In this document: one piece after another, positions 34,849 through 41,772 of the stretch | How the letters are laid out: every line of letters starts with the position of its first letter | Numbering within the stretch: the first letter of the stretch is position 1 | NCBI GenBank assembly: GCA_945869695.1 | Contig: CAMBPV010000001.1 | Location: 62,001-126,000, forward strand | Direction of reading: 5' to 3' | Origin: Prosthecobacter debontii | GTDB lineage: Bacteria; Verrucomicrobiota; Verrucomicrobiia; Verrucomicrobiales; Verrucomicrobiaceae | DNA: 64,000 nucleotides | Translations under genes and position numbers: made by a program | Notes under the pieces: model-generated | Databases searched by the model: none | The model's input: only the letters and a program-made list of their open reading frames with translations | What the model was told of the DNA's origin: nothing

Positions 34849-35730
34849 TCACATCCGCCCTCGATGCTCACTGGGACGCCAGCCGATCCATTTTTTAAAC
34901 GTGTTCGAAAAGACAAAGGCATTTTTATAGCCCACAGCCTGCGAGATCGTCTCCACCTTCAGCGGGGTCGTGGACAGCAACTCGGCGGCTTTTCTCATGC
35001 GCAGCCAGGTGACGTGATGCATCGGGCTGCGACCGAGCGAGCGGCGACAGAGCCTCCGCAAATGCTCCGCACTCACGTGGGCATCCGCTGCCAGTTCATT
35101 CAGTGTCCAGTCACGTCCTACATTCGCTGACACCTTTTCCCAGAGGCGCCAGAGGCGATCATCCTGCTGCCAGGGTTGGGCAAAACGCTCGACATAATTT
35201 TGAATCAGTTCCACCCAGTGAAACATGGCAGCAGGGAGCCCTGCGCAACTCGCCTCCTCGATCAAGCCCTCCACGGCATGCCACAAACCACAGCCGTCAT
35301 AACGAGCCATCACGGGCGAACTGGAAGAGAGGATCGGCTTCTGCTCAGGCTGCTGCTCATAGCGCACCCAGCAGCATTTCCAGTCTTTCCCCTTCACCGC
35401 TTGAAATGCATTCACCATGAACGGCGGCAGCGCCACCGCCGTGCCAGCCGCGCACTTTTGCCATCGGCCATCCACGAGCACGCGACCCTCACCCTCGATA
35501 CAGGCTAGAAAATAAAGACCACTCTGGTGAATGCGCACGATCTGGTAGGGAGCGCGCGCCGTCATCACTCCCGCGTGGGAAACCTGGTGCGTCTGCAGCA
35601 GTCCGCACACCGGCGCTGTTCTTAGCCAGGGCCTCCGATCCGTCTCTCGTGCCTTCACCACACGCGCCTCGGTCCGGTCACCCAGAATGTGGGTTTCGGA
35701 TAGCTCTTGGATGGCTGATGATGCGTGCAT
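34849..35730 (-). CDS. AraC-family transcriptional regulator
   Basis: 293 residues. The N-terminal cupin-like sensor (about 55-130, with ACIEGEGRVLVDGRWQKCAAGTAVALPP) is followed by a C-terminal AraC DNA-binding domain with two helix-turn-helix units: WTLNELAADAHVSAEHLRRLCRRSLGRSPMHHVTWLRMRKA and VETISQAVGYKNAFVFSNTFKKWIGWRPSEHR. Sugar-responsive regulators often have this architecture. Divergent to the PEP-hydrolase-like gene (gap 35731-35841), which is its most likely target (inference). Confidence 0.9.
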   Translation of the reverse strand: MHASSAIQELSETHILGDRTEARVVKARETDRRPWLRTAPVCGLLQTHQVSHAGVMTARAPYQIVRIHQSGLYFLACIEGEGRVLVDGRWQKCAAGTAVALPPFMVNAFQAVKGKDWKCCWVRYEQQPEQKPILSSSSPVMARYDGCGLWHAVEGLIEEASCAGLPAAMFHWVELIQNYVERFAQPWQQDDRLWRLWEKVSANVGRDWTLNELAADAHVSAEHLRRLCRRSLGRSPMHHVTWLRMRKAAELLSTTPLKVETISQAVGYKNAFVFSNTFKKWIGWRPSEHRGRM

Positions 35731-35841
35731 GAGGAGGCAGGTTGAGGTTGGTTGAGACGTTGACTGGAATTGACGTCAGTTTCAAACTGTCGTCATCCAC
35801 CGCAACCTATCGTAAACCACCACCTACCTCTCTCAAACGCC

Positions 35842-36708
35842 ATGCCAAATCCTTGGACCGGAATCGGAAATCCTTACACACGTCAGGAAGTTATTGATCG
35901 TCTCAATGCAACACTGGCCAAAGGACAGCCCATCATTGCAGCGGGAGCCGGCACCGGCATCAGCGCCAAGTTCATTGAAAAAGGCGGCGCGGATCTGATC
36001 ATCATTTACAACAGCGGACGCTTCCGCATGAGCGGTCACGGCAGCACTTGCGGACTCATGGCCTATGGGGACGCCAATGCCGTAGCCATGGAGATCGGCG
36101 AGTACGAGGTTCTCCCCACGGTGAAAGAGATCCCCGTCATCTGCGGCGTCCATGCCACCGATCCCCGCCGCCGCATGTGGCACTGGCTGGGCAAGGTGAA
36201 GGAGATGGGCTTCTCGGGTGTGAACAATTTCCCCACCCACACCATCATCGACGGCCATTTCCGTCAGGTGCTGGAGGAGACCGGCATGTCCGTGCAGAAA
36301 GAGTTTGAAATGGTCGGGCTCGCCAGTCGGATGGACCTCTTCAGCATCGTTTACGTCGCCACACCCGACGAGGCCATCGAGATGGCCAAGCAAGGAGCAG
36401 ACGCCATCATCGCCCACGTCGGCACCACCGTTGGAGGCAGCATCGGCGTCACAAGTGCCGTCGTCAGTTGGGACCACACCATTAAGGTCACTCAGGACAT
36501 CATCGCCGCCGCCAAGTCCGTGAACCCCAAAGTTTTCACCCTCACTCACGGTGGCCCCATCAACACGCCAAAAGACGTCGAGCTCATCCTCAGCAAAACC
36601 AGCGCCGACGGTTTCGTCGGAGCCAGCAGCCTCGAGCGCATGGGCGTGGAAGATTCTCTCACCCAACTGACCCGCGAGTTCAAGAACGTGCCTTGGAAGA
36701 GGTCGTAA
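35842..36708 (+). CDS. Phosphoenolpyruvate hydrolase-like TIM-barrel protein
   Basis: 288 residues. The opening GIGNPYTRQEVIDRLNATLAKGQPIIAAGAGTGISAKFIEKGGADLIIIYNSGRFRMSGHGS... and GVHATDPRRRMWHWLGKVKEMGFSGVNNFPT are conserved in the PEP-hydrolase (PF09370, formerly TIM-barrel signal-transduction) family. In plants and fungi, such domains are fused to Tm-1-like proteins; here the partner (UPF0261) is absent. The reaction is unproven. ATG 35842 (MPNPWTGIG) starts right at the conserved block; an in-frame TTG-type start at 35770 would reach into the regulatory gap. An intrinsic terminator follows. Confidence 0.85.
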   Translation: MPNPWTGIGNPYTRQEVIDRLNATLAKGQPIIAAGAGTGISAKFIEKGGADLIIIYNSGRFRMSGHGSTCGLMAYGDANAVAMEIGEYEVLPTVKEIPVICGVHATDPRRRMWHWLGKVKEMGFSGVNNFPTHTIIDGHFRQVLEETGMSVQKEFEMVGLASRMDLFSIVYVATPDEAIEMAKQGADAIIAHVGTTVGGSIGVTSAVVSWDHTIKVTQDIIAAAKSVNPKVFTLTHGGPINTPKDVELILSKTSADGFVGASSLERMGVEDSLTQLTREFKNVPWKRS

Positions 36709-39370: not shown

Positions 39371-39838
39371 ATGAACGCCACCGCACCTGAATCCGCACCT
39401 TCCCCGCAATCCAAAGACAACGACTGGAGCTCCTTCCTGGAGAAAGTCGTGGCTGACTTTGACTGCACGACAGGCACACTCCACCGGTTCGATCCTGCGG
39501 ATAATCATCTCAAACTCATGGCCAGCATGCGCATTCCAGAAGTGCTAATCCCCGTGATTCAATCCATCCCCGTCGGCAAAGGTATCGCCGGCGCAGCAGC
39601 CGAGCGCCGCGAGGCAGTGGAAATGTGTAATCTTCAGACTGACCCCTCTGGCGTGGCTAAGCCTGGGGCAAAGCAAACCCAGGTGCAAGGATCCCTTGCC
39701 GTCCCCGTGATGGATGGATCACGCCTCTGCGGCACCTTGGGAATCGGAAAAATGATTCCCTACGACTTCACCGAAGAGGAAAAGCAAAACCTGATGCAAC
39801 GGGCCGCCAGCGTCGCCGCTCGACTGTTACCCGCCTAG
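39371..39838 (+). CDS. Stand-alone GAF-domain protein
   Basis: 155 residues. The whole body from about residue 18 is one GAF domain: the start FLEKVVADFDCTTGTLHRFDPADNHLKLMAS, then IPVGKGIAGAAAERREAVEMCNL, QGSLAVPVMDGSRLCGTLGIGK and DFTEEEKQNLMQRAASVAARL. GAF domains bind small molecules such as cyclic nucleotides or act as free methionine sulfoxide reductases; the Cys arrangement of the latter is not obvious here, so a sensor role is more likely. It converges with the OvoA-C-like methyltransferase gene, 8 bases apart. Confidence 0.82.
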   Translation: MNATAPESAPSPQSKDNDWSSFLEKVVADFDCTTGTLHRFDPADNHLKLMASMRIPEVLIPVIQSIPVGKGIAGAAAERREAVEMCNLQTDPSGVAKPGAKQTQVQGSLAVPVMDGSRLCGTLGIGKMIPYDFTEEEKQNLMQRAASVAARLLPA

Positions 39839-39846
39839 CCGCCGAT

Positions 39847-40578
39847 TCATTTTCTGATCCACCGCATCCCCAGCGCGACACTCCACTGATACTTGCGAGC
39901 GTGTTCGCGAATGAGGAACGGCATGTCGCAACACTTCGAAAGCTCGAAGTGGGGCTCAAGCAATGAGGTGAGCCATTCACGTGTTGAACCCCGGGGCCAG
40001 TTCCCGCGCGGAGTAAACTCTTCCAGCCAGGTGCAGGGTGTCGTCAGCAAAAGCTGCCCGCCAGACCGCACCAAACCCGGAAGCCGCTCAATCAGCTTCA
40101 AAGGATCCGTCAAACGGCACAATAAATTTGCAGCGTGCACCACATCGTAGCTCCCGATGTCGGCGCGCAAATTCATGGCATCCCCCTGCTCAAAAGAAAC
40201 ACGTTCTCTGCACAGATTCTCCGGCACATGTGCAACAAGATGGGTGCGCTCACTCCCCTCATCCACGCGCTCATACTCCATGCTTCCATCACGAGCGAGC
40301 GCTGCCGCGGCATCCACAAAACTCTGCGAATAATCGATCCCCAGAACACTCGTGCCAAAGGAGGCCAATTCAAAACTCGAGCGCCCCACCGCGCAGCCGA
40401 GATCGAGAATTTTCGACTCGCACGGCGTGTGCGGAAGATCGATCAATTCCACCACGGTGCGCACGGGGAAGCCCAGCGCCTCACGCGGCCCGCCTTCCCA
40501 CGGCAGCACCTCTTGGGGTTGGCCGTAGTGGAAGAGCAGGTATTCGTCGAGCAGCCGACGCGTTTCGTAGATGTTCAT
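39847..40578 (-). CDS. Stand-alone OvoA-C-like SAM-dependent methyltransferase (putative 4-mercaptohistidine N1-methyltransferase)
   Basis: 243 residues. The N-terminal segment IYETRRLLDEYLLFHYG and the SAM-binding block KILDLGCAVGRSSFELASFGTSVLGIDYS resemble the C-terminal methyltransferase domain of OvoA, the ovothiol enzyme, which N-methylates 4-mercaptohistidine. Here the domain stands alone, without the DinB/FGE-type sulfoxide synthase part. Family assignment is from memory of these motifs; an unrelated class I methyltransferase is the main alternative. The next gene upstream (M29-like) is 12 bases away on the same strand and is probably co-transcribed; the GAF gene is convergent. Confidence 0.65.
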   Translation of the reverse strand: MNIYETRRLLDEYLLFHYGQPQEVLPWEGGPREALGFPVRTVVELIDLPHTPCESKILDLGCAVGRSSFELASFGTSVLGIDYSQSFVDAAAALARDGSMEYERVDEGSERTHLVAHVPENLCRERVSFEQGDAMNLRADIGSYDVVHAANLLCRLTDPLKLIERLPGLVRSGGQLLLTTPCTWLEEFTPRGNWPRGSTREWLTSLLEPHFELSKCCDMPFLIREHARKYQWSVALGMRWIRK

Positions 40579-40590
40579 GCCAGGACCACC

Positions 40591-41772
40591 TTACTCGGAA
40601 GCCAAGGCATCCCGAAGATACTTGGAGGGCTGGAAGTGCTCGATCAAAACGGTCGTCACACCATCGCGGTGCATCCGGGCCTGTTTGATATCAAAGTTCG
40701 GCGTCTTGTGCGGAGCAAAAAGGATGTCATCATGCGTCGCATTTTGATGCCGTTTGAACTGATCTGGCGTGATGTGACCGCCCAAATGATCATCCCGACC
40801 CGTCGCCAAATGACAGGTGCCGAGAACTTTTTCATCCTGAATGTCCGCACCCGAAACAGGAAGCACCTGAGTGCCAAATCCCAACTCGCCCAGCACCCCC
40901 GTCATCGGATCATCAGCCAGTTTGGCGTTGTGCGCATCGATGGTTGATTGCTTCCCCTCGATCAATTCTGACTTGATGATGCAGCCACCTGTCACGGTCA
41001 GCTTACCCAGCGTGCCGTCCTCGTATTTGAGCGGAAAACATCCCTCGGCCCCCTGCGGCACAAAATAGACTTCCCCCGCAGGAAGATTAGCCACATCGGG
41101 CGTGTCACCTCGGCAGAGACCGTGGCTCTTTTGGGCCTCTTGCTGGCCCAATTGCAAACGCACCGTCATGTCAGGACCGTTCTCGACGGTGAAGTCGATC
41201 TCCACCCAATCCGAACGCGTCATCGCGCTGCGCAGTTTTTCAGCATCCCGACTCACCTCTTCGTAATCAACCGCGAGTCCGGAATTCAAAATCACGTCAT
41301 TCACGCCGTGAAGAGTCGCTCCGCGGAAACCAAATTTTTTCGCATGGGCCGTGAGAGGTGCCGTAGCCGAGAAGGTGGAAATGCAAAGGATGATGTCGTA
41401 TTTGCTGTAAACATCCTTCTCGAGGCTCAGCTCGCGTCCGCTCATGTCCACACACAGATCCGGCATATCCAGATTGCTACCGCCCGTTTGTTCATACGCA
41501 AAAATTTCTCCACCCGTGGCTCCGAGCGTGAGCAAGCCTCCGTCTTTCAAGCCGAGGTGAAAGTGCTCATACGCCCGCTGTTGAATGGGTCGGTTCGGAT
41601 TTTGGAGAAAGGCGAGACCTTTAGCTTCAGCCAGATCCGGCAGGTCGATCAGAATGCAAAAACGTTTCCCCTGAGTGGGTTGAAACACGCTGGAGAGCAA
41701 GCGCACGAGATTAAACTCGCGAAATTCCCGCTCAAGGGCGGCTGACTGAACTGGGAGGGGTGCAGATGTCAT
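40591..41772 (-). CDS. M29 aminopeptidase-like metalloprotein
   Basis: 393 residues. The C-terminal half follows the M29 (aminopeptidase T) pattern: ANLPAGEVYFVPQGAEG (Glu234), GVLGELGFGTQVLP (Glu296), DEKVLGTCHLATGRDDHLGG (His321), and ATHDDILFAP (His347 and Asp349). These match the positions of the two-metal ligands in M29 peptidases in order, with similar spacing. The N-terminal half (CILIDLPDLAEAKG...) is more divergent. It could be a peptidase on small thiol-containing peptides or an M29-fold dioxygenase-like protein. Its tight link to the methyltransferase gene suggests a joint pathway (inference). Confidence 0.65.
   Translation of the reverse strand: MTSAPLPVQSAALEREFREFNLVRLLSSVFQPTQGKRFCILIDLPDLAEAKGLAFLQNPNRPIQQRAYEHFHLGLKDGGLLTLGATGGEIFAYEQTGGSNLDMPDLCVDMSGRELSLEKDVYSKYDIILCISTFSATAPLTAHAKKFGFRGATLHGVNDVILNSGLAVDYEEVSRDAEKLRSAMTRSDWVEIDFTVENGPDMTVRLQLGQQEAQKSHGLCRGDTPDVANLPAGEVYFVPQGAEGCFPLKYEDGTLGKLTVTGGCIIKSELIEGKQSTIDAHNAKLADDPMTGVLGELGFGTQVLPVSGADIQDEKVLGTCHLATGRDDHLGGHITPDQFKRHQNATHDDILFAPHKTPNFDIKQARMHRDGVTTVLIEHFQPSKYLRDALASE

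Follow-up and report, generated by a model that had tools for sequence, protein, structure and literature searches.

A conserved gene pair in Verrucomicrobiota hints at a route to ovothiol-like thiols without OvoA

Layout and surroundings of the gene pair

The window analysed here is a stretch of 64,000 nucleotides from Prosthecobacter debontii. Its minus strand carries two open reading frames separated by 12 bases, counted from the stop codon of the first to the start codon of the second, which agrees with the initial annotation. The first encodes a metalloprotein of the M29/NicX fold (termed M29-like below) and the second a stand-alone methyltransferase of the OvoM type. The following features were assigned.

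40591..41772, minus strand: M29/NicX-fold metalloprotein, first gene of the pair (open reading frame, 393 amino acids)
40726..41073, minus strand: codons of a predicted dinuclear metal site, E234, E296, E314, H321, H347 and D349 (residue conservation)
40579..40590, minus strand: 12-base spacer with a GGTGG stretch ahead of the methyltransferase start codon
39847..40578, minus strand: stand-alone OvoM-type methyltransferase, second gene of the pair (open reading frame, 243 amino acids; TIGR04345)
40099..40137, minus strand: methyltransferase pocket motif HAANLLCRLTDPL, residues 148-160, with Cys154 where OvoA, OvoM and OvsM have Asp
40009..40044, minus strand: methyltransferase pocket motif TTPCTWLEEFTP, residues 179-190, with Cys182 where OvoA, OvoM and OvsM have Tyr

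From its position before the start codon, the GGTGG stretch may act as the ribosome site of the methyltransferase gene. A promoter and terminator scan returned signals that did not rise above the level of shuffled sequence.

The surroundings of the pair were compared in 100 loci together with the window region, using open reading frames of at least 90 amino acids and a simple picker that misplaced some genes. Within this material no third gene recurred widely at the pair, recurrent genes for C-S lysis or for the supply of sulfur were not observed, and no transporter or peptide gene was widely recurrent. At three loci a gene of the fatty-acid-hydroxylase family (PF04116, ~105 bits) was present between the M29-like and methyltransferase genes.

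L045:5333-6418, L046:7243-8319 and L047:7260-8210: PF04116 gene between the pair, in Verrucomicrobium and Phragmitibacter loci

In the window, a gene for a GAF-domain protein of 155 amino acids (39371-39838, plus strand) converges on the methyltransferase gene and ends 8 bases from its stop codon; the protein belongs to no family common to the other loci. Positions 34849-36708 hold a gene for an AraC-family regulator, divergent from one for a PEP_hydrolase-like protein (PF09370, 343.7 bits).

The two proteins and their predicted active sites

The initial annotation had likened the methyltransferase to the C-terminal domain of OvoA. Both motifs named there, YETRRLLDEYLLFHYG and LDLGCAVGRSSFEL, are present, and the family assignment was borne out, with no unrelated family ahead. 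In an NCBIfam profile search the protein scored 171.6 bits against TIGR04345, a small margin over the cut-off of 170, while the next-best model, UbiG, was far below at 37.8 bits and TIGR04344, the sulfoxide synthase domain of OvoA, gave no match. The best PDB sequences were OvsM (3.4e-43), OvoA (6.9e-39) and OvoM (1.3e-37). A structure model built from 34 homologues (pLDDT 94.0) matched OvsM, OvoM and OvoA with Z 29.8-31.8 (Z 30-32 for OvsM and OvoM), the OvoM/OvsM fold extending over the full length of the protein (Z 31.8, 232 residues, rmsd 1.6), and the next fold family was carnosine N-methyltransferase at Z 17.1-19.3. Substrates named in the PDB titles of the fold matches are 5-selenohistidine, 5-thiohistidine and carnosine. 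The N-methyl-bacillithiol synthase NmbA was considered as the true family and rejected, being absent from the PDB match lists and having a different motif (VLDIAxGxG, PMC12719100).

The pocket of the enzyme differs from that of its solved relatives. All three solved members carry NLIDRL and SPYT where the window protein has NLLCRL and TPCT; the Asp of NLIDRL and the Tyr of SPYTW are thus missing, and a pocket lined by Cys154 and Cys182 may receive another substrate. It could be that the pair makes some other methylated metabolite and not a thiohistidine, with the exclusion of OvoA described below reflecting lineage effects or redundancy of end products. We regard this as unlikely. The Cys/Cys pocket does occur in 66 of 107 M29-linked methyltransferase rows, against 17 with the canonical Asp/Tyr pocket of OvoA and OvoM (NLIDRL/SPYTW), in a set some of whose rows come from genomes that yielded no M29-like gene (such as L281, from G568) and in which one genome, G215, is counted twice (L204 and L313). 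The narrow TIGR04345 margin also speaks for another product, as do 48 genomes, out of 114 with a match in the window's order, whose best match lies below the cut-off; the 17 canonical pockets speak against it, as does a group of genomes with decayed OvoA domains, presented in the next section.

The partner had been annotated as an M29-like metalloenzyme, which proved right for the metal ligands, found in order, and did not hold for the family as such. Its sole Pfam match, PF02073, scored 22.9 bits and so lies below the cut-off of 27, and no NCBIfam model matched, TIGR04344 included. Searching the PDB with the protein alone (phmmer) retrieved nothing, and a profile of close homologues gave only a chance match (E 0.6); the mixed profile A3 retrieved AmpS, PepS, AmpT and NicX. 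In a model built from 67 homologues (pLDDT 82.4, falling under 50 at residues 302-318) the best fold match was NicX (Z 22.7, 307 residues, rmsd 4.2), followed by the M29 peptidases PepS, AmpS and AmpT at Z 15.7-16.6 and by the crocagin proteins CgnE (Z 11.2) and CgnB (Z 10.3).

The six residues of the predicted metal site, E234, E296, E314, H321, H347 and D349, are invariant in the 67 close homologues and also in 14 more diverse homologues or paralogues. They contain the M29 ligands E, E, H, H and D and align with the ligands of AmpT. The catalytic Tyr of M29 (AmpT Y352, seven residues after the ligand His) is replaced by a gap or Asp. E234 and E296 are aligned with a Phe and with His265 of NicX, the latter one of the iron ligands listed in PMC7910607; the region of NicX Ser302, His318 and Asp320 falls outside the sequence alignment, and H347-x-D349 matches only its His-x-Asp spacing. 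With the Tyr absent and the NicX ligand positions different, the active site is not that of a proper M29 peptidase, and it is not that of NicX either. The same six residues match, in order and kind, the six zinc ligands of CgnB as described in PMC10070186. Judged from the alignments, this ligand set (E,E,E,H,H,D) belongs to the hydrolase-type M29/CgnB kind and not to the kind found in the iron dioxygenase NicX. Such a set would be compatible with oxidative sulfur transfer or with hydrolytic release.

Hydrolytic release underlies a second alternative, which casts the M29-like protein as a hydrolase of the aminopeptidase or amidase type. Acting on a peptide or conjugate that is imported or produced elsewhere, it would liberate 5-thiohistidine or a related imidazole for the methyltransferase to methylate; OvoA would then represent synthesis replacing salvage in some lineages. 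The retention of all M29/CgnB-type metal ligands, PF02073 as the only Pfam match and the fold matches to PepS, AmpS and AmpT are as expected for such a hydrolase. The missing catalytic Tyr, the Pfam score below the cut-off and the better fold match to NicX are not, nor is the lack of a widely recurrent transporter or peptide gene beside the pair in the 100 loci and window region. CgnB, moreover, has the same kinds of ligand and is described in PMC10070186 as being without aminopeptidase activity. We hold this alternative to be unlikely. The initial annotation had itself suggested that the M29-like protein processes a peptide form, and the loss of the Tyr together with the closer NicX fold argue mildly against that.

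The fold relationship to CgnE and CgnB raises a further reading, that the M29-like protein binds a peptide in their manner and that the target of the methyltransferase is a histidine within a ribosomal peptide. According to PMC10070186, CgnB combines an M29-like fold with a six-ligand dinuclear zinc site, and CgnB and CgnE guide RiPP formation. Among the open reading frames of at least 90 amino acids that were compared, no dioxygenase or other RiPP enzyme was widely conserved beside the pair, and this reading appears very improbable.

A second family of M29-like paralogues (L255-L267, ~360 amino acids) was seen in other Verrucomicrobiota, with the motifs LINLPSGEAFIVPYEGE and EDEKAGxHWAYGRSEHLGG; none of the three members scanned had an NCBIfam match. 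In other phyla, a protein search of a plasmid collection gave only partial matches of 29% for the M29-like protein, and the methyltransferase led to OvoA-type genes.

Distribution of the pair and of OvoA

Co-occurrence was counted in three genome samples, namely the window's order (141 genomes), a phylum sample (387) and the order of genome G344 (159), and in their union, in which each genome is counted once; all of these counts ignore relatedness. In the union, the stand-alone methyltransferase was present in 210 genomes, of which 190 also had the M29-like gene, 14 had OvoA and 6 had neither. The M29-like gene was found in 194 genomes, four of them without the methyltransferase, and OvoA in 26. 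No genome had both the M29-like gene and OvoA. In the phylum sample alone, this lack of overlap is weak evidence (P 0.053 by chance arithmetic, relatedness ignored).

M29-like proteins with 63-84% identity were detected in 50 of 57 relatives, the window's own genome included, and in 115 of the 141 genomes of the order. Both genes were present in 112 genomes of that order, the M29-like gene only in three, all incomplete, and neither in 24, mainly of one genus; the remaining two, G037 and G095, had a TIGR04345 match without an M29-like gene, the match in G037 being a fused OvoA. Of the 159 genomes in the order of G344, 58 carried both genes, 11 the methyltransferase with OvoA, five the methyltransferase with neither and one only a fragment of the M29-like gene. 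In the phylum sample, a stand-alone methyltransferase accompanied every strong M29-like match (57/57); a further 18 of the 75 listed genomes were left out, as they had only weak M29-like matches (best E 1e-34 to 1e-5), which a sample check indicated to be paralogues. The incompleteness of metagenome-assembled genomes blurs the exceptions both ways.

The initial annotation had expected conservation of the pair in relatives, and the gene order indeed recurs across families. In the phylum sample, 44 pairs shared contig and strand, with the methyltransferase match starting no more than 150 bases downstream in 31. When 80 named genome loci were fetched by way of the M29-like gene, the methyltransferase lay inside the fetched DNA in 36, many of the contigs being short. 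That the two genes are unrelated neighbours might be argued from the window's order, where 48 of the 112 genomes with both have them on different contigs (64 on the same contig, with starts less than 2.6 kb apart in 55) and where a few have a wide gap between them on a single contig (460 kb in G113, for instance). This reading is already disfavoured by the way the two genes come and go together across families and by their adjacency in many distant ones, and of all those weighed here it seems the least credible. Conservation of the pair is far above chance.

The idea that the locus is an OvoA pathway split into separate proteins does not hold in its simple form. In the window's genome, which is 94% complete, TIGR04344 gave eight matches, the best of 30.6 bits against a cut-off of 400; since no OvoA/EgtB sulfoxide-synthase core was found there, the pair is not a split OvoA. 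A split OvoA elsewhere in that genome was rejected on the same score, the 14 matches to PF03781 (E <= 0.001) having been counted only. Nor was an OvoA core found in any of the 57 phylum-sample genomes with the M29-like gene, one of which, G266, had a weaker EgtB-like match of 126 bits. OvoA above the cut-off was present in one of 141 genomes of the window's order (G037) and in 18 of 387 in the phylum sample.

Ten genomes of the order contain frames of 385-491 amino acids that score 103-139 bits against the OvoA N-terminal model (L162-L171); these are probably EgtB-like enzymes, and both genes of the pair are also present in eight of the ten. On a plasmid of Sulfurovum mangrovi (L272:1636-4894), ovoA is followed by a gene for a PatB-type C-S lyase, a candidate OvoB; according to PMC12631010, ovothiol synthesis is the work of OvoA, OvoB and the methyltransferase domain.

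The OvoA proteins of Verrucomicrobiota themselves fall into two states. Fifteen have a degenerate methyltransferase domain.

L213, L215, L218-L223 and L274-L280: degenerate OvoAs, monophyletic, families f9, f16 and f94

Of 35 conserved positions, these domains had lost a median of 11 (8-14) and the intact ones 0 (0-2); four plasmid OvoAs from outside the reference set had lost 0-6 (median 3). The iron motif HxxxHxE was kept in all 14 degenerate OvoAs with a frame longer than 600 amino acids. A stand-alone methyltransferase was present in 14 of the 15 genomes with a degenerate domain, G260 being the exception, and in none of the 11 with an intact OvoA (Fisher 1.6e-6, relatedness ignored, a value that overstates the case because all the samples consist of related genomes). 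Conserved changes are common to the degenerate domains (GCK for GCA, FMQAD/SNM, and TSLEKA or NLLERS) and so they may have a new role, not none.

In quick trees made without bootstrap, the fused OvoA methyltransferase domains formed one group (98%) apart from the stand-alone side, and the degenerate domains one group (99%). The stand-alone methyltransferases of families f16 and f94 lay among the M29-linked ones, f16 with G148 and f94 with G266 (supports 87-93, unstarred); their f9 counterparts branched basally on the stand-alone side. In f16 and f94 these placements suggest inheritance of the stand-alone methyltransferase, with loss of the M29-like gene and acquisition of OvoA. The simplest history is that OvoA's own methyltransferase domain decayed after OvoA had replaced the M29-like gene. 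The other outcome of such a swap is G037, with a complete OvoA and both genes of the pair missing.

These genomes are the ones that count against a product other than a thiohistidine, as stand-alone methyltransferases of the same tree region coexist with an OvoA whose methyltransferase domain has decayed. In f16 the stand-alone enzymes have a Cys/Phe pocket in genomes with OvoA, which weakens, without removing, the objection raised by the altered pocket. On our reading of the swap pattern, the methyltransferase receives the same substrate, or an equivalent one, from the M29-like protein as from the OvoA synthase; the two look interchangeable as suppliers.

Proposed route and relation to known systems

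The interpretation that we favour, tentatively and at somewhat less than an even chance, is that the pair forms an OvoA-independent route to an N-methylated metabolite of the 5-thiohistidine type, either ovothiol A or a closely similar compound. In place of the OvoA sulfoxide synthase, the M29/NicX-fold metalloenzyme would supply a thio-imidazole that is 5-thiohistidine or closely resembles it; the OvoM-type methyltransferase would then N-methylate a ring nitrogen of the imidazole with SAM. We infer that the M29-like protein is an enzyme and makes the methyltransferase substrate, likeliest by metal-dependent oxidative sulfur transfer or C-S chemistry on histidine, and that this substrate is a thio-imidazole. 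Family, fold and context are the basis for the methylation step; a single line of evidence, the exchange with OvoA, is the basis for supply by the M29-like protein. A more specific proposal, possible and on balance doubtful, sees in the M29/NicX-fold protein a thiohistidine synthase of a second kind, unrelated to OvoA: a (di)nuclear metal enzyme would sulfurate the imidazole of histidine, and it would have been swapped with OvoA more than once. Counting against the favoured interpretation are the Cys154/Cys182 pocket of the window's methyltransferase, M29-like ligands that differ from those of NicX, and the 6 + 4 exception genomes, together with the weak overlap statistic of the phylum sample, the changes common to the degenerate OvoA domains and the lack of a recurrent C-S lysis or sulfur supply gene at the compared loci.

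In the open-access PMC literature we found neither a description of this pair nor a link between M29-type proteins and ovothiol. To our knowledge, OvoA is the known entry to 5-thiohistidines. Surveys of ovothiol makers depend on the detection of ovoA. The pair, often adjacent in Verrucomicrobiota, seemingly replaces a missing ovothiol enzyme, which hints at an undiscovered route to a strong natural antioxidant. If the M29-like protein does replace OvoA, the production of ovothiol-like thiols would have gone unnoticed in many Verrucomicrobiota, the protein would be a new metalloenzyme forming C-S bonds, and labels such as 'aminopeptidase' would be misannotations. If it is indeed a second synthase, ovothiol-like antioxidants would be made across a bacterial phylum in the absence of any known sulfoxide synthase. 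The natural swaps in families f9, f16 and f94 and in G037 offer a ready experimental comparison.

Among known systems, the methyltransferase is closest to OvoM of Sulfuricurvum and OvsM of Marinimicrobium, the N-methyltransferases of ovothiol and ovoselenol synthesis, which likewise stand alone. It has in common with them the full-length fold, the SAM motif LDLGCAxGR and the C-terminal IREhxRKxQ; it differs in having Cys for the Asp and Tyr of NLIDRL and SPYTW, in an extra N-terminal loop, EVLPWEGGPREALGF, and in a genome in which no OvoA was found. The C-terminal methyltransferase domain of OvoA (8khq; TIGR04345) is of the same family by the curated cut-off, but the window's enzyme is not fused to a sulfoxide synthase and lies on the other side of the tree. 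For the M29-like protein the closest fold is NicX, 2,5-dihydroxypyridine dioxygenase (7cn3, 7cup), yet the two are only 13% identical. Peptidase family M29 (AmpT, AmpS and PepS) has the fold and metal ligands in common with it, whereas the M29-like protein has no catalytic Tyr and scores below the Pfam cut-off. Crocagin CgnB and CgnE are more distant, at Z of only 10-11, and belong to a RiPP context of a kind not seen at the pair.
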